Positions 15,440 through 61,225 of a stretch of 64,000 nucleotides of DNA are shown here, one piece after another. Both the position numbers and the translations under genes were made by a program. The stretch comes from Listeria ivanovii subsp. londoniensis (GTDB taxonomy: Bacteria; Bacillota; Bacilli; Lactobacillales; Listeriaceae), in the NCBI RefSeq assembly GCF_000763495.1, contig NZ_CP009576.1, positions 1,312,001 to 1,376,000 on the forward strand, given 5' to 3'. Positions within the stretch are counted from its first letter, which is position 1. Each line of letters starts with the position of its first letter. The notes under the pieces are model-generated. The model saw nothing but the letters and a program-made list of their open reading frames with translations, was not told the origin of the DNA and searched no databases.

Positions 15440-15467
15440 TTGCACCGCGCCGGATTTATGCTATAAT
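15440..15467 (+). promoter_or_regulatory. Promoter of the Rli55-type B12 RNA
   Basis: A -35 box TTGCAC (15440-15445) and a -10 box TATAAT (15462-15467) are separated by 16 bases, placing the start of transcription near 15474, just before the riboswitch. This is direct sequence evidence, with no activator site needed. Confidence 0.75.
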
Positions 15468-15487
15468 AACGTTGATAAACGAATTCG

Positions 15488-15592
15488 CTCATACAAACAA
15501 ATAGATACTGGAAGTCTGGTGAAAATCCAGCACGGTCCCGCCACTGTAAGGAGTTAGACACTCTAAGTCAGGTCTTTTATCTGCTTGTTTTA
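15488..15592 (+). promoter_or_regulatory. Adenosylcobalamin riboswitch (Rli55 type)
   Basis: Conserved cobalamin riboswitch elements are visible: GGTGAAAATCC after CTGGAAGTCT, the GCCACTGTAAGGAG block, and the 3' AAGTCAGGTC B12-box region. It lies just downstream of a promoter and just upstream of a hairpin with a T-run, so ligand binding probably promotes early termination. It controls the non-coding RNA rather than directly a B12 gene. Confidence 0.93.
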
Positions 15593-15635
15593 ACTGGTTG
15601 TACTGCTTCGAGGCAAAGCAAGTACAATTCTTGGT

Positions 15636-15666
15636 TCCAGTGTAGTTGTCTCACTGGGGCTTTTTT
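15636..15666 (+). terminator. Riboswitch-controlled terminator
   Basis: CCAGTG (15637-15642) and CACTGG (15652-15657) pair across TAGTTGTCT, followed by GGC and six T residues. A transcript from ~15474 ending here would be about 190 bases, fitting the short B12-bound form of Rli55. Confidence 0.8.
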
Positions 15667-15749
15667 ATTTGTTTTTAAAACAAATAAGCCCACTGTAAAG
15701 GTTTTGGTGCCGAGAAGTGACCGAATTAATCGTTTATCAAGCACCATAC

Positions 15750-15763
15750 GCACAAAGATGTGC
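15750..15763 (+). promoter_or_regulatory. Extra ANTAR-like hexaloop hairpin inside the B12 RNA
   Basis: GCAC and GTGC flank the six-base loop AAAGAT, which has the A at position 1 and G at position 4 that EutV-type ANTAR proteins need. A second hairpin follows at 15765-15782 (CCGCTA/TAGTGG), but its loop AAGTTA lacks G4, so this pair is imperfect. It may be a secondary EutV contact or chance. Confidence 0.45.
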
Positions 15764-15909
15764 ACCGCTAAAGTTATAGTGGGCAATGGTCTTTTCAATG
15801 CTGAAAAGAGGGATACAAGGAACGTATCTACATTGCCTATTAACAAAAAAAGATTTGACATTTCCACTCGTTTGGTTTTTAATAAAGTGGACAAATAAAA
15901 TATTTTACG

Positions 15910-15944
15910 GTACAAAGGCGTACTGTTTACTTAGCAAAGAAGCT
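15910..15944 (+). promoter_or_regulatory. EutV (ANTAR) binding hairpin pair before eutG
   Basis: The first hairpin is GTAC-AAAGGC-GTAC (15910-15923) and the second is AGC-AAAGAA-GCT (15933-15944). Both six-base loops have A1 and G4, the signature recognised by EutV. The 3' side of the second hairpin is also the 5' arm of the terminator at 15939-15988, so EutV binding should block termination. It is also the likely decoy element of the long Rli55 RNA. Confidence 0.85.
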
Positions 15945-15988
15945 TTGAGTTGGAAGAGGAGAACCCTCTACTCAAAGCTTCTTTTTTT
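15939..15988 (+). terminator. ANTAR-regulated terminator before eutG
   Basis: GAAGCTTTGAGT (15939-15950) pairs perfectly with ACTCAAAGCTTC (15970-15981), with an inner AGAGG/CCTCT stem and seven T residues after it. The 5' arm overlaps the second ANTAR hairpin, which gives mutually exclusive structures. Confidence 0.9.
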
Positions 15989-16015
15989 AGTTTTAAAAAA
16001 TTAGGAGGTAATCTC

Positions 16016-17155
16016 ATGCAAAAAGTTAGTTTTAAAACAGATCTTTATATTGGCCAAGGAGCAACAGATCGTTTACTAGATTTTAAGGACAAGCAAATTT
16101 TTATCGTCACAGATCCATTTATGGTTAGTTCTGGCATGATTAACGCGATTACAGAAAAAATTGACAAATCGAATACATACACGATTTTTAGTGAAATTAT
16201 TCCTGACCCACCGATTGAAAACGTCGTTGCTGGAATCGAAGTTTTAAACCAGTGTGATGCGAATTTAATGATTGCGATTGGTGGCGGATCAGCTATTGAT
16301 GCGGCGAAAGCAATGAAATTTTTCGGACAAAAACTTGGTACGGTGCGTGCGATGCCATTTATCGTAATTCCAACAACAAGTGGAACTGGTTCAGAAGTAA
16401 CTAGTTTTTCCGTAATTACCAACAAAGAAAAAGCCATTAAATATCCACTTATTACTGATGCTATTTTGCCAGATGAAGCGATTTTAGATGCGGATTTAGT
16501 GAAATCGGTACCACCAGCAATCACAGCAGACACTGGGATGGATGTACTAACGCATGCTTTAGAAGCTTATGTTTCAACTAAAGCCAATGACTACTCTGAT
16601 GCAATGGCCGAAAAAGTAATTCAGTTGGTTTTCACTTATTTAGAACGTGCCTATAAAGATGGAAATGATTTAGAAGCTCGCGAAAAAATGCATAATGCTT
16701 CTTGTCTTGCTGGGATGGCCTTTAATATTACATCACTTGGGTTAAACCATGGTATCGCACATACGGCAGGAGCTAAATTCAAAATCCCGCACGGTCGGAT
16801 GAACACATTACTTTTACCTCATGTTATTAGCTATAATGCTGGACTTACAAGTGATTTTGGTAACAATCCAGATAACCGTGCAGCAGAACGTTACACAGCG
16901 ATTGCGAAGTTACTTAAAATGCCAGCATCAAACACAAGACTTGGCGTGCGCAGTCTAATAAATGCAATTAAACAACTCCAAAAGAAACTTAATATGCCAA
17001 CGACTTTGACTGAATGTGGTATTAGCCGAGCAGACCTAAATGAAAATATTACACAAATTGCAGAAGGTGCGCTAAACGATGGATGTACTGCAACGAACCC
17101 AAGAACACCTACAGAAACAGATGTAAGTGCCATTTTGGAAAAAATGCTCGCTTAA
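16016..17155 (+). CDS. eutG: Iron-dependent alcohol dehydrogenase, probable EutG
   Basis: This 379-residue group III alcohol dehydrogenase carries [33 protein letters not shown] and the metal-binding NHGIAHTAGAKFKIPHG. It probably reduces acetaldehyde to ethanol to recycle NADH in the ethanolamine pathway. It is often labelled pduQ by similarity, but it sits behind a EutV-type antitermination leader, as eutG does in Enterococcus, so eutG is the better inference. The open frame reaches back to 15950 through the terminator; the real start is ATG 16016 behind TTAGGAGGTAATC. Confidence 0.85.
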   Translation: MQKVSFKTDLYIGQGATDRLLDFKDKQIFIVTDPFMVSSGMINAITEKIDKSNTYTIFSEIIPDPPIENVVAGIEVLNQCDANLMIAIGGGSAIDAAKAMKFFGQKLGTVRAMPFIVIPTTSGTGSEVTSFSVITNKEKAIKYPLITDAILPDEAILDADLVKSVPPAITADTGMDVLTHALEAYVSTKANDYSDAMAEKVIQLVFTYLERAYKDGNDLEAREKMHNASCLAGMAFNITSLGLNHGIAHTAGAKFKIPHGRMNTLLLPHVISYNAGLTSDFGNNPDNRAAERYTAIAKLLKMPASNTRLGVRSLINAIKQLQKKLNMPTTLTECGISRADLNENITQIAEGALNDGCTATNPRTPTETDVSAILEKMLA

Positions 17156-17191: not shown

Positions 17192-17220
17192 TTGACATCG
17201 TTTTCATGCTACCTTATAAT
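17192..17220 (+). promoter_or_regulatory. Promoter of eutVW
   Basis: A consensus -35 TTGACA (17192-17197) and -10 TATAAT (17215-17220) are separated by 17 bases. Transcription should start near 17227, immediately before the first ANTAR hairpin, so constitutive initiation is followed by control at the leader terminator. Confidence 0.85.
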
Positions 17221-17228
17221 AGAACCGA

Positions 17229-17273
17229 GCACAAAGACGTGTGGATAATAAATATAGCAGAGCAACGGGGCTC
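17229..17273 (+). promoter_or_regulatory. EutV (ANTAR) binding hairpin pair before eutV
   Basis: The first hairpin is GCAC-AAAGAC-GTGT (17229-17242) and the second GAGC-AACGGG-GCTC (17260-17273). Both loops have A1 and G4. The second abuts and competes with the terminator that follows, so EutV should autoregulate its own synthesis. Confidence 0.83.
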
Positions 17274-17316
17274 CCTCAAAAATATTACACAATATTTTTA
17301 AGGGGCTCTTTCTATT
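17267..17316 (+). terminator. ANTAR-regulated terminator before eutV
   Basis: AAAAATATT (17278-17286) pairs with AATATTTTT (17291-17299), extended by CCCT with AGGGG (one mismatch between), and followed by CTCTTTCTATTTT. The 5' arm is shared with the second ANTAR hairpin. Confidence 0.8.
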
Positions 17317-17432
17317 TTCTTGGAGATTTTTTCTCTAGCTCTTTGACTCTTTCGCTCAAGTAAATGCTTCTAAATAGTGGTACGTATTTATGTACATATC
17401 AACTAATAGCAGAAGAAGAGGACGTGACAGGA

Positions 17433-18005
17433 ATGAATGGAAGAATTGTAATAGCCGATGATGAACCTATTACAAGAATGGATATCCGGGACATACTGGA
17501 AGAAGCGAACTACAATGTTGTAGGGGAAGCAACAGATGGTTTTGAAGCAATCGAACTTTGTAAAAGCCATCAACCAGATCTTGTTATCATGGACATTCAA
17601 ATGCCACTCTTAGACGGTTTGAAAGCAGGAAAACGAATTATTTCAGAAGGTTTAGCCGGTGGAATAATTTTACTTACTGCGTTTAGTGATCCTAAAAACA
17701 CCGAAAAAGCAAAAGGCTTTGGAGCACTTGGTTATTTAGTAAAACCGCTCGATGAAAAAAGTTTGATTCCAACAGTTGAAATGAGTATTGCCAAAGGACG
17801 CGAAACAAGAAAATTAGAACTGCAATTAGAAAAATTAACCAAAAAGCTAGAAGAACGAAAAGTGATTGAAAAAGCTAAAGGTGTGCTTATGATTGAGAAT
17901 AATATCACAGAAGAAGAAGCATACAACATGATTCGAAACTTAAGCATGGATAAACGATGTCCAATGATGGAAATCGCAGAAACGATTGTGATGAGTGATG
18001 ACTAA
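17433..18005 (+). CDS. eutV: Response regulator / RNA antiterminator EutV
   Basis: EutV is the RNA-binding response regulator of ethanolamine use. The receiver domain (about residues 1-125) shows ADDEPITRMD and the phosphoacceptor Asp54 in DLVIMDIQMP. A short coiled linker (ETRKLELQLEKLTKKLEER) leads to the ANTAR domain (about 135-185: KAKGVLMIENNITEEEAYNMIRNLSMDKRCPM). When phosphorylated by EutW it dimerises and binds paired hexaloop hairpins, preventing termination. ATG 17433 is preferred, with GTG 17424 three codons earlier an alternative. It overlaps eutW. Confidence 0.95.
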   Translation: MNGRIVIADDEPITRMDIRDILEEANYNVVGEATDGFEAIELCKSHQPDLVIMDIQMPLLDGLKAGKRIISEGLAGGIILLTAFSDPKNTEKAKGFGALGYLVKPLDEKSLIPTVEMSIAKGRETRKLELQLEKLTKKLEERKVIEKAKGVLMIENNITEEEAYNMIRNLSMDKRCPMMEIAETIVMSDD

Positions 18006-19455
18006 AACAATCAGAGAAATGTGTTTACGTTATACGGATTTAGCTGAATATGATATTGATGAATTAATGCATACAGCGGAGTCACTTAGTAAGTCTTCCA
18101 TGTATCAAGATGTCGATGTTTTTATTGATGTCTACAACAAGTTAACTAGTGAAGCGCTCGTTATCCACCACACACCACCAAAAACAACCAAATCACTTTA
18201 TAAAAATAACGTCGTCGGAGAAACCGCCTTGCGTAGTAATGAGCCAGGTGTACTCAGAACGCTTGAAACAGGAATGAACTCCAACGATTTACTCGCGAAA
18301 ACACAAGAAAATGTGTTGATTCGCCAAAAAGTTTATCCAATTCGCAACAAGCAACGCGTTATCGCTGTTTTGATTTTGGAAAACGACATTAGCGCAGAAA
18401 TTAAGGCTCATTTTGAAATTGGTAATGAAGATATGGCTTATCGAGATGTATCCACTACGCTTTCCGCAATGAGTAAATTAACGGATTCGATAACCGATCA
18501 GTTAGACGATGCGATTTTAATTTTTGACCGAAATGGTATTTTGCAACAGAAAAATTATGCAGCCGACCAATACTACGAACGACTTGGTTATATGGAAAAT
18601 ATCCATGGCATGCATTATGATAATTTGTCGCTTGATCAAATGATGTTTGATGCGATTATGTATCAAATCGAAACTGGCAAGCAACCAATTCAGTTAAAAA
18701 AAGAGGTCGTCATTGCAAATAATTATTTCATTATGAAGCAAATTTTTGTCAAAGAAGATGACGCGCAGGAGTGCAGATTTATTCTTATCTTGCATGATGT
18801 TACCGATATTAAAGTAAAAGAAGCGGAAATCGTATCGAAGTCAGTCGCGATTCGTGAAATTCACCACCGTGTAAAGAATAACCTTCAATCAGTCGTATCG
18901 CTGCTCCGAATTCAGGGGCGTAGATCTACTAGTGTGGAAGCGCAAAAAATTCTAAATGAAAGTGTCAGCCGGATTTTAGCCATTGCTGCAACACACGAAC
19001 TACTCTCGAAGCAAATGGAAGACGGTATTAACCTTTACATGGTGATTGAGACAGTTGCTTACAACGTGGAAAGATGTTGTACCGATTGCCCAAAAATAGC
19101 GGTCCGGATGGATATTGATAAACGAATTTATTTGGATAGTGACCGAACCGTCGCACTTGCTCTAGTCATGAATGAATTACTACAAAATTCTTATGACCAC
19201 GCATTTCATCCAAATGAATCAGGCGAAATTTTACTTCAAATAAAAGAAGAAAAAAATATTATTCATGCCGAAGTAACCGACAACGGACATGGCTTCAACG
19301 TTCGTAAAGTATCTGAGAAGAGCCTCGGACTTTCGATTGTAAAAAGCTATATTAAAGATAAACTTCGCGGCAAAGTAACAATTGAATCCAATGAACATGG
19401 AACCAAAACAATGTTTGATTTTAAATACAATTCTATCCATGCTACAAAGAAGTAG
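17998..19455 (+). CDS. eutW: Ethanolamine-sensing histidine kinase EutW
   Basis: EutW is the soluble sensor kinase that responds to ethanolamine and phosphorylates EutV. Residues ~1-140 are the sensory N-terminal domain, ~160-270 a PAS-like domain, and the HisKA_2 dimerisation box IREIHHRVKNNLQSVVSLLR includes His289/290. The ATPase domain shows MNELLQNSYDHAFHP (N box) and DNGHGFNV (G box). No transmembrane segment is apparent. The start overlaps the last codons of eutV, either ATG 17998 or GTG 17995. The final codons encode part of the first ANTAR hairpin for eutA. Confidence 0.94.
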   Translation: MTKTIREMCLRYTDLAEYDIDELMHTAESLSKSSMYQDVDVFIDVYNKLTSEALVIHHTPPKTTKSLYKNNVVGETALRSNEPGVLRTLETGMNSNDLLAKTQENVLIRQKVYPIRNKQRVIAVLILENDISAEIKAHFEIGNEDMAYRDVSTTLSAMSKLTDSITDQLDDAILIFDRNGILQQKNYAADQYYERLGYMENIHGMHYDNLSLDQMMFDAIMYQIETGKQPIQLKKEVVIANNYFIMKQIFVKEDDAQECRFILILHDVTDIKVKEAEIVSKSVAIREIHHRVKNNLQSVVSLLRIQGRRSTSVEAQKILNESVSRILAIAATHELLSKQMEDGINLYMVIETVAYNVERCCTDCPKIAVRMDIDKRIYLDSDRTVALALVMNELLQNSYDHAFHPNESGEILLQIKEEKNIIHAEVTDNGHGFNVRKVSEKSLGLSIVKSYIKDKLRGKVTIESNEHGTKTMFDFKYNSIHATKK

Positions 19456-31679: not shown

Positions 31680-32174
31680 TTGAAGATTCAAAAATTAGTA
31701 TTATGTGCGATGTTAATTGCGATGTGTGTAATTGGCGCAAACATAAAATTAATGGGTTCAGTTGCATTTGATGCGACACCAGCTTTTATCGGTACCTTAT
31801 TACTTGGTCCAATGTACGGGGCAATTCTTGGGATATTCGGTCATTTAACTTCCGCGTTACTAGCGGGTTTTCCGTTAACGCTACCGATTCACTTAATTGT
31901 TGCTGGAATGATGGGCATTACGATGATTGCTTATGGCTTTACACGTCAAATGTTGGCAGAAAAAACACAACTAATTAGCGTTGGTTTATCCAGTCTAGTT
32001 GCTTTTGTTTTTAACTGTCCGCTATCTTTATTAGCACTTTACCCATTTATGCACGAAGCAGTATTGGCATTATTTCCAGTCCTTGCGATTGGCACGATTT
32101 GCAATATTTTTGTAGCAGAAATCGTGTATCAAGTTTTACCGGAACGCTGGAAAAAGCGAATTGCCGGTTACTAA
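31680..32174 (+). CDS. cblT: ECF transporter S-component, probable alpha-ribazole importer CblT
   Basis: This 164-residue protein is almost entirely hydrophobic, with about five to six membrane helices, and has the compact size and glycine-rich loops of ECF S-components (LLGPMYGAILGIFGHLTSALLAG, ALFPVLAIGTICNIFVAEIVY). It lies just before a B12 riboswitch and the cbi operon. In Listeria innocua an S-component called CblT is known to import alpha-ribazole, the lower-ligand nucleoside of B12, and this gene's place fits. Substrate assignment is inference. The start is TTG 31680 behind GAGAGGGTG. No ECF ATPase genes are adjacent, so it would share a common energising module. Confidence 0.7.
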   Translation: MKIQKLVLCAMLIAMCVIGANIKLMGSVAFDATPAFIGTLLLGPMYGAILGIFGHLTSALLAGFPLTLPIHLIVAGMMGITMIAYGFTRQMLAEKTQLISVGLSSLVAFVFNCPLSLLALYPFMHEAVLALFPVLAIGTICNIFVAEIVYQVLPERWKKRIAGY

Positions 32175-32181
32175 AAACTAA

Positions 32182-32345
32182 ATAGGTGAATATATTAATC
32201 CGGGAAAGAGGTGAAAATCCTCTACAGGCCCTAGCTACTGTAATACGGACGAAAGCCAAATGAAACTAAAGTCACTGGAAATTTTTTTCTGGGAAGACTG
32301 GTGAGTAGGATGAAGTTAAGTCAGGAGACCGCTAGTATATTCAAT
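32182..32345 (+). promoter_or_regulatory. Cobalamin riboswitch controlling the cbi operon
   Basis: Conserved cobalamin elements are present: GGGAAAGAGGTGAAAATCC, the variant GCTACTGTAATACGGACGAAAGCC block, a long peripheral arm, and the B12 box AAGTCAGGAGACCGC. A strong terminator follows at 32449-32484, so high AdoCbl should stop transcription before cbiA. This is feedback control of corrin synthesis. Confidence 0.95.
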
Positions 32346-32448
32346 ATTTAAGAAACAACTTCTAAGGGAGCGAGTTGTCTTTATTAATCAGGTTTCATAA
32401 TAGGAACGTTTCTTTGAGTTTGAAAGAAATACCTAGGATAAATCTGCA

Positions 32449-32509: not shown

Positions 32510-33868
32510 ATGAAGAAAATCGTAATTGCCGCAGCATCAAGTGGGGCCGGGAAAACAACTGTAACGCTTGGTATTATGCAGGCTTTGAAAAAAAGAGGTC
32601 AACGTGTTCAACCATTCAAAGTGGGACCCGATTATATTGATACGAATTATCATCAAGCAATTACCGGTGTCCCGTCGATCAATTTGGATAGTTTCTTAAT
32701 AGCTGACGATTGTTTGCTAGCTTCTCTGTTTCAAAAGCATGCTGCACTCGCAGATATATCTGTGATTGAAGGCGTGATGGGGCTTTTTGACGGGTTAGGC
32801 ATAGACCGGGATAACGCCAGTACTTCTTTTATAGCTAAATGTACGAAAACACCGGTTATTTTAGTGGTTGATGGAAAGGCAATCTCTACTTCTGCTGCCG
32901 CAATTGTCGCTGGTTTTAACAGCTTTGATCCGGAACTGCAATTAGCTGGAGTGATTGTCAATCGGGTAGCGTCAGAAAGCCATTTTTCCTTAATAAAAGG
33001 GGCGATTGAACGATATACGGATGTTCCTGTGTTGGGTTATTTGCCGAAAAATTCGGAGGTTGCGCTTCCTGAAAGACATCTCGGTTTAGTTCCGCAAGAG
33101 GAAATGGATGAACTAGAGGCGAAGTGGGCGTTACTTGGAGATTTAATCGAAACGCATGTCGATATGGAAAGATTGTTGCAAATTAGTGAACTTGGCGGAG
33201 AACTTGTGAATACTAATCCGAAAGTTCAACTACCTGATTTTTCTGGCAAGAAAGTAGCATACGCGCTAGATGAAGCATTTCATTTTTACTACCAAGATAA
33301 TTTAGACTTAATCAAATCGACCGGGGTAGAATTAATTCCATTTAGTCCACTGGAAGATAAAGCGTTGCCAGAAGCTGATTTCATTTATATTGGCGGAGGA
33401 TTTCCAGAAGTATTTGCAAGTAGGCTAGCACAAAATTACTCGATGCGCGAATCCATTTTGACGGCGCATGAAAACGGCATTCCGATATATGCAGAATGTG
33501 GTGGCTTGATGTATCTCGGTACAAGTTTGGAAGTGAATGGGACGCTTTACGATATGGTAGGCATTTTTGAAGGGGTGAGTAAGATGACGGAGCGACTTCG
33601 GAAATTTGGTTATTGTTTTGCAACTCCAGCATACGATACACTACTTGGCAAAACCGGGACAACGATTCGCGGACATGAATTTCATCACTCCATTTTCGAA
33701 ACAACGGAAAAAACTTGTCTAAATTTGTCTAAAATGCGCGACGGAGCAGTTATTAAAGAATGGTGCGGCGGCTATCAAAAAGGGAATACTTTTGCGAGTT
33801 ATCTGCACATCCATTTCTACCAAAATCCTGCTATCTTAACGCAGATGTTTGGAGCGATGAAACGATGA
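32510..33868 (+). CDS. cbiA: Cobyrinic acid a,c-diamide synthase CbiA
   Basis: CbiA amidates the a and c side chains of cobyrinic acid using glutamine and ATP. The 452-residue protein has an N-terminal P-loop ([15 protein letters not shown]) and a C-terminal glutamine amidotransferase-like domain with the catalytic Cys330 in [11 protein letters not shown] and a late HIHFYQNP. It is the first gene of the cbi operon, behind a B12 riboswitch, and overlaps cbiB by 4 bases. Confidence 0.96.
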
Positions 33869-60957: not shown

Positions 60958-60984
60958 AGAAACTATCTAAATATCAAAAGACAA

Positions 60985-61225
60985 TGAAAGAGAAAAGTAA
61001 CAAAGCATGTTTGTAATAGGGAGAAGTGGTCATAGACTGAAAACCACTTTACAGACTAATTTGCGAACATTTCAGCTCTGGAGTCGCCACTGGGAAGCGT
61101 ATCTGACGTGAAGGTGGATCGGTTACTAAGCCGTTATCAAAATTTTGAGTGGGAGCAATTTATTTGTTCTTATTAGGGTGGTACCGCGAGAAGTCTCGTC
61201 CCTTTGTGGATAGAGCTTTTTTATT
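60985..61225 (+). promoter_or_regulatory. T-box leader responding to uncharged tRNA-Phe
   Basis: The T-box motif AGGGTGGTACCGCG (61175-61188) binds the tRNA acceptor end. A Phe specifier TTC (61071-61073) lies in the ACATTTCAGC context. The AGGG-CGAGA/TCTCG-CCCT terminator arms (61175-61203) are followed by a later T-run (about 61219-61227). Uncharged tRNA-Phe should favour the antiterminator and pheST expression. Confidence 0.92.

Follow-up and report, generated by a model that had tools for sequence, protein, structure and literature searches.

A B12 riboswitch, a putative three-loop EutV decoy and a probable second RNA unit, the alcohol dehydrogenase leader, at the Rli55 locus of Listeria ivanovii

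The stretch of DNA analysed here (the window, 64,000 nucleotides) belongs to a Listeria ivanovii genome of 3,045,035 bases and contains the whole set of elements of an Rli55-type locus: an AdoCbl riboswitch, a first terminator, an ANTAR hairpin pair, a second terminator and an alcohol dehydrogenase (ADH) gene. Systems of the Rli55/EutX type are a well-known case of a riboswitch that controls a protein by way of a decoy RNA, and the core of the locus is already known, as Rli55 in L. monocytogenes (reportedly Mellin et al. 2014) and as EutX in Enterococcus faecalis (reportedly DebRoy et al. 2014). By its sequence, the window locus is the Rli55 locus of Listeria, the same locus as in L. monocytogenes with a DNA sequence that differs (92.7% identity to an L. 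monocytogenes record, 97% of the 561-base query covered). Its 5' side carries threonine-phosphate decarboxylase CobD and a GHMP-kinase ORF, presumably PduX. On its 3' side, the eutV leader (rli56, RF01483) sits between the ADH gene and eutV, and the EutVW pair encoded near the riboswitch consists, by Pfam, of an ANTAR response regulator and a histidine kinase. The features are the following.

15459..15467, + strand: Rli55 promoter, extended -10 (TG-C-TATAAT), read by eye from the sequence
15483..15632, + strand: AdoCbl (B12) riboswitch aptamer, RF01482 (cmscan 153.1 bits, cut-off 50, E 3.3e-30)
15634..15668, + strand: first terminator, the riboswitch expression platform (hairpin 15634-15660 plus U-run; MFE -14.2 kcal/mol, z -4.9; terminator scan)
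15688..15837, + strand: putative decoy domain with three A1/G4 loops (closing stems 15688-15698/15774-15784 and, as an alternative, 15782-15788/15831-15837)
15750..15763, + strand: hexaloop hairpin S, GCAC-AAAGAU-GUGC (sequence and conservation)
15790..15809, + strand: hexaloop hairpin D1, UCUUUUC-AAUGCU-GAAAAGA (sequence and conservation)
15812..15828, + strand: hairpin D2, GAUAC-AAGGAA(C)-GUAUC (7-base loop, or hexaloop plus bulge)
15855..15883, + strand: probable ADH-leader promoter, TTGACA-17-TTTAAT (11/12 consensus bases)
15907..15944, + strand: ANTAR dual hexaloop of the ADH leader (P1 15907-15926, P2 15933-15944; A1/G4 loops, linker 6 nt)
15936..15987, + strand: second terminator (5' arm overlaps P2)
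16016..17155, + strand: iron-containing ADH, EutG/PduQ-like (Pfam Fe-ADH 135.8 bits and ADH_Fe_C 212.8 bits, both over cut-off)
17192..17335, + strand: eutV leader (promoter match 17192-17220, 12/12; hexaloops 17229-17242 and 17260-17273; rli56 17238-17335)
17433..18005, + strand: eutV, ANTAR response regulator (reading frame open from 17364; Response_reg and ANTAR score over the Pfam cut-off)
17995..19455, + strand: eutW, sensor histidine kinase (Pfam GAF_PdtaS, HisKA_2 and HATPase_c over cut-off)

The histidine kinase is named eutW from its position beside eutV, and NCBIfam models match the ADH ORF below their own cut-offs (e.g. EutG, 203 bits). The window EutV carries D54 and the RNA-contact residues R142, K149, E160, Y164 and M172 named in the 2022 structural work (Walshe 2022); across 19 aligned EutV proteins R142, K149, E160 and M172 are invariant, and position 164 is Y in 17 and F in two. 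The linker between the hexaloops of the eutV leader (17229-17273) is 17 nt, which exceeds the 5-12 nt of E. faecalis.

A preliminary description, made from the letters of this stretch, had listed a promoter, the riboswitch, two terminators, ANTAR hairpins and the ADH gene. The parts list is borne out by the RF01482 match, the folds and Pfam, down to the promoter before the riboswitch, whose -10 is identical in the 11 other aligned rows that cover the site in the right orientation (L005 has an N at the site, and L006 and L015 lie in the other orientation, so that these three are excluded). Strict consensus promoter scans of the window report neither this -10 nor the inner promoter at 15855-15883, which goes unreported by the stricter scans because they require A at position 2 of the -10. 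Transcription presumably starts near 15474, and from that start the predicted RNAs would measure about 195 bases to the first terminator, 365 to the end of the decoy domain and 515 to the second terminator, in agreement with the forms of about 190 and 515 bases that had been proposed. The Rli55 forms of L. monocytogenes are given as 200 and about 450 bases in a review excerpt; since the published 450 fits neither 365 nor 515, RNA length cannot decide where the long form ends.

Where the preliminary description departs from the present reading is in joining these parts into a single B12 riboswitch-terminator-ANTAR unit. The parts exist, but an inner promoter and a three-loop domain intervene. 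The latter, located between the first terminator and the inner promoter, had been overlooked. It folds with an MFE of -45.2 and a z of -3.06 (15684-15838), and its 57-nt core (15782-15838) with an MFE of -21.2 and a z of -5.1. Its loops S, D1 and D2 have the EutV signature, A at position 1 and G at position 4 (A1/G4), two hexaloop bases reported to matter for EutV (Ramesh 2012, PMC3369931, as excerpted). They thus form a series of EutV-type loops that, by sequence and conservation, lie downstream of the aptamer with no terminator attached. Their conservation was followed in 15 Listeria sequences, namely the window, 13 other loci and L. marthii, whose locus is within the nearest EutV loci (among the best 80 of 408 EutV loci in named genomes). 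The variable loop columns are position 6 of S, positions 3, 5 and 6 of D1 and positions 3, 6 and 7 of D2; all seven avoid positions 1, 2 and 4, which would happen by chance with a probability of 0.0024 (0.034 if only 1 and 4 are taken as protected). The L. monocytogenes record also has the three loops, together with the inner promoter match and the leader pair. The domain is conserved well outside its loops, and in the named helices, those of the ADH leader included, all 765 of 765 cells are paired with no double change. Covariation is therefore uninformative within Listeria, as the helices are too conserved.

It can thus be proposed that EutV binds S, D1 and D2 and that these form the main sequestering part of the RNA, and the comparative evidence probably places the decoy at 15688-15837. 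One result of the modelling speaks against open hexaloops S and D1 in the free RNA: RNAfold joins A1 to U6 in both, leaving tetraloops. D1 and D2 were also considered as a classical ANTAR dual-hexaloop site, for which partial accounts of E. faecalis give linkers of 5-12 nt; with a D1-D2 linker of 2 nt and a D2 loop of 7 nt, this assignment was rejected. A 3-base linker is said in such an account to have strongly reduced antitermination in E. faecalis. The D1-D2 pair may still bind EutV, and decoy function may not need paired hexaloops. The minimal ANTAR target is described as one hexaloop, with an additional one in EutX (Walshe 2022, as excerpted), and the anatomy of the middle domain suggests that sequestration uses several single loops and not one antitermination site, in agreement with that 2022 structure.

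The two closing stems of the domain share bases at 15774-15788: GUGGGC, the 3' arm of the stem that closes the decoy, runs into GGCAAUG, the 5' arm of the stem that closes D1-D2. Because of this overlap the two stems are mutually exclusive, and a bistable switch is possible. Overlapping closing stems look similar by eye in a few other loci.

The ADH leader follows. Only four promoter matches of at least 11/12 occur on both strands of the 64 kb; that at 15855 is one of them, and that at 17192 before eutV is another. The match at 15855 is present in all 14 Listeria regions and in L. monocytogenes, and its sequence suggests an active promoter. Downstream, the leader (15888-15990) folds with an MFE of -34.1 and a z of -5.18, and the ANTAR hairpins and second terminator of the preliminary description are present within it: two A1/G4 loops, invariant in the 15 Listeria sequences, with a 6-nt linker, and a P2 that overlaps the terminator in the fold. 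These properties are those of a dual-hexaloop attenuator, and the pair is alike in linker and overlapping terminator to the eutP leader type, as far as the latter is presented in excerpts of Ramesh 2012 (PMC3369931). The middle domain of Listeria differs from such attenuators, as no U-run follows it. A similar contrast is provided by rli56, which shares with the ADH leader a promoter match and two hexaloops before a eut-type gene and differs from the Rli55 decoy in having no riboswitch, a 17-nt linker and the status of a target. Because of the terminator overlap and the strong promoter match upstream, the pair at 15907-15944 is read here as what it looks like from its sequence, an EutV-controlled attenuator of the ADH gene. 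The preliminary description had taken the hairpins at 15910-15944 for the decoy; their overlap with the terminator, their own conserved promoter match and their resemblance to the eutV leader argue against that assignment. A test of EutV binding at 15910-15944 would accordingly probe the ADH attenuator and not the decoy; placing the decoy at 15688-15837 changes which piece of the RNA should be probed. A review, in the part available, likewise describes the EutV site of the riboswitch RNA as "not associated with a terminator". In Listeria there is no terminator between the middle domain and the ADH leader, the U-run being missing (TATTAACAAAAAAAG after 15837). The long RNA thus probably carries both the decoy and the ADH leader.

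The explanation of the locus that we favor, with a probability of about 0.73, is that of two tandem RNA units, the Rli55 decoy and the ADH leader. It is built on sequence elements, folds, conservation and, in part of the other loci, the order of the elements. The promoter of the first unit would produce the AdoCbl aptamer. When B12 is present, the first terminator would form and release an RNA of about 200 bases; EutV would be free, and the eut leaders would be antiterminated when ethanolamine is available. When B12 is absent, transcription would continue into S, D1 and D2, which would bind phosphorylated EutV away from the eut leaders. The second unit would be the ADH leader, transcribed from its own promoter at 15855, in which EutV bound to the dual hexaloop would prevent the second terminator. 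The long B12-free RNA of Listeria probably passes the ADH promoter into the leader, giving five loops on one molecule, and may end at the second terminator or be antiterminated into the ADH gene. The anatomy even allows the speculation that EutV gathered on the decoy might pass to the leader pair of the same RNA; if so, the Listeria RNA could both hold EutV and hand it to the ADH leader. The B12-gated termination and the sequestration of EutV by Rli55 are described in several reviews (PMC8079631, PMC5821096, PMC7602753 and PMC11236296, in the parts available), and review excerpts report that EutV is sequestered in trans in both L. monocytogenes and E. faecalis.

An alternative is that the pair at 15907-15944 is itself the decoy and the middle domain only a spacer. 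The pair obeys the classical dual-hexaloop rules with its linker of 6 nt, the lack of an intervening terminator should make it part of the long RNA, and a review excerpt mentions an ANTAR-like motif in full-length Rli55. This reading is nonetheless unlikely, as the pair has its own promoter match at 15855 and is linked, like that of eutV, to a terminator and a gene, whereas the three A1/G4 loops upstream of it show loop-specific conservation. A comparison with other genera also speaks for the two-unit explanation. In the order, EutV was found in 55 of 395 sampled genomes (threshold E<=1e-25). RF01482 and EutV share the same 15 of the 25 genomes of the window's genus, and 39 of the 40 other EutV genomes have RF01482 over cut-off, from which 45 riboswitch regions were taken. 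A scan of named genomes found the aptamer within the flank taken in 24 of the best 80 of 408 EutV loci; 18 of the 24 entered the region comparison, and four duplicate a genome already sampled. The aptamer-bearing loci among the best 80 belong to Listeria, Paenibacillus, Brevibacillus, Enterococcus, Brochothrix, Vagococcus, Pontibacillus, Bacillus methanolicus, Robertmurraya, a Lactobacillales MAG, Streptococcus, Floricoccus and three lactobacilli genera.

The regions with a downstream ADH-type ORF (n = 52) carry at least one A1/G4 hexaloop before the leader pair in 40 cases and at least two in 35. Outside Listeria (n = 38, including four duplicates of a genome and two regions of G058), the counts are 26 and 21, and the automatic split found no decoy hexaloop in the other 12. 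Of the same 38 regions, a crude script finds 16 with a U-run no more than 45 bases past the last decoy loop and 14 with a promoter match of at least 9/12 ahead of the leader; 12 have both, and 22 have no U-run by this test. In regions with such a U-run the riboswitch RNA may stop short of the ADH leader, which would not fit a decoy placed in the leader pair. The order of decoy loops, U-run, TTGACA/TTGACG-type promoter match, leader hexaloops with terminator and ADH recurs in Paenibacillus, Pontibacillus, lactobacilli and others (e.g. G259 and G153). In several related loci a U-run thus separates the decoy from the ADH leader, unlike in Listeria.

Some loci have other arrangements. Brevibacillus laterosporus (L097) has an aptamer near eutV, and neither such a loop nor an ADH-type ORF was found behind it. 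This locus, and the finding of U-run plus promoter match in no more than 12 of the 38 regions, slightly lower the confidence in the two-unit explanation and in the wider proposal made below. Two loci without a decoy call, in G139 and G338, have a G1 loop visible by eye. G058, from the window's family, carries two riboswitch-hexaloop-ADH units in one genome (L056 and L057), and its eutV match is limited to residues 65-213 and runs across a stop. In L059, L065 and L071 (G122, G201 and G169) the ADH leaders seem to contain a single hexaloop ahead of the terminator, and that of L059 is closely preceded by a TATAAT-like word; judged by sequence, they are possible single-loop attenuators.

It could also be supposed that there is no decoy and that a cis-acting B12 riboswitch and an EutV attenuator jointly control the ADH gene, since all the elements precede this gene on the same strand. 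This is highly improbable. Termination by B12 would be expected to turn ADH off, the opposite of what ethanolamine use should need; the loci of genus g6, Streptococcus included, have riboswitch and hexaloops on the strand opposite to eutV, and a search of 700 bases there showed no ADH-type ORF; and the trans sequestration related in the review excerpts disfavors a cis-only reading. Least credible of all is a conserved RNA with another role (stability, or another protein) whose A1/G4 loops are a by-product: the middle domain does fold (z -3.06) and is conserved well past its loops, but in 19 genus representatives (18 genera and the window) A1/G4 occurs in 31 of the 57 hexaloop hairpins that lie within about 200 bases of the aptamer on its 3' side (the 31 include some ADH-leader hairpins from short loci). 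Across 300 shuffles the mean was 0.76 and the maximum 4, and the reverse strand gave 2 of 45, which equally speaks for the two-unit explanation. The loops are also far rarer behind the cobalamin riboswitches of other EutV bearers, as detailed below.

The Listeria locus is close to EutX, in which an AdoCbl riboswitch is likewise followed by an EutV site without terminator (PMC5821096 and PMC8934654, in the parts available). The passages of reviews that treat Rli55 speak of an ANTAR element or site and do not set a three-loop decoy apart from the ADH leader. Titles and the openings of abstracts in the literature yielded no description of a separate three-loop Rli55 decoy or of a clostridial EutX, which is weak evidence of absence. 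For Clostridium, a 2018 review states, in the part available, that the eut loci have EutV and no obvious riboswitch, and asks whether an EutX-like RNA lies elsewhere. A search for RF00174 therefore covered 16 genomes, located by way of named EutV loci from Clostridia, Veillonella, Desulfoluna, Robinsoniella and Cetobacterium, and gave 121 matches; 147 regions were examined, made up of 119 of these matches (80 + 39) and all 28 matches of four relatives. They contain 12 consensus hexaloops on the riboswitch strand and four on the other. At least two occur in three of the 147 regions, and in none on the reverse strand, vs 62 of the 77 Bacilli regions within 350 bases (0/77 on the reverse strand; 45 regions of the order, 18 named and 14 Listeria, with some genomes counted repeatedly and leader loops included).

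One such case is that of C. sulfidigenes (L254, L281; G399:C3), where two A1/G4 loops lie in a multibranch closed by UAGGAG/CUCCUA after a riboswitch and a terminator, on a different contig from eutV. The sibling genome G413 (L325/L358/L371; G413:C47) has the same element, likewise on a different contig from eutV, in which stem changes keep pairing, one C-G pair having become U-A; the second hairpin has lost one of its outer pairs, and the loops differ from those of C. sulfidigenes only at positions 3, 5 and 6. The DNA of the element matches six of 194 genomes of the family, and over most of its length only C. sulfidigenes and G413. G414 has the aptamer, with no such loops and no EutV match. 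Both C. sulfidigenes and G413 combine a cobalamin riboswitch, at least two A1/G4 hexaloops and a genome with EutV, and the element is, on these sequence grounds, a candidate EutX-like RNA outside the eut locus. In G413 the element may act in cis, because a CbiQ cobalt-transport gene follows it on the same strand; this gene is not adjacent in C. sulfidigenes. If the candidate holds, the Clostridium RNA would answer the question of the 2018 review, and it makes testable how EutV systems without a riboswitch in the eut locus might couple to B12. A wider proposal, tentative and with odds falling just short of even, is that the B12-gated EutV sponge is a portable multi-loop module of broader occurrence than the review excerpts portray: its loops would number between one and about four in Bacilli, in Listeria it would be joined in cis to the EutV-controlled ADH leader, and in Clostridium it would lie away from eutV.

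The last of the three regions with at least two loops is that of Veillonella magna (L295, L370:8262-8610; G407:C5), where an intergenic cobalamin riboswitch is followed by two AGC-AAAGAA-GCU hexaloops in a stem ending in a U-run; the EutV gene is located on a different contig. Relatives lend this two-loop element no support, as it was not seen at the 18 other matched riboswitch copies of its genus. The Listeria window itself has a second cobalamin riboswitch at 32148-32350 (RF00174, 80 bits), 5' of a cobyrinate diamide synthase-like ORF (32510-33868), with no close hexaloop pair found behind it, and a T-box leader at 60975-61206 (RF00230, 113 bits).
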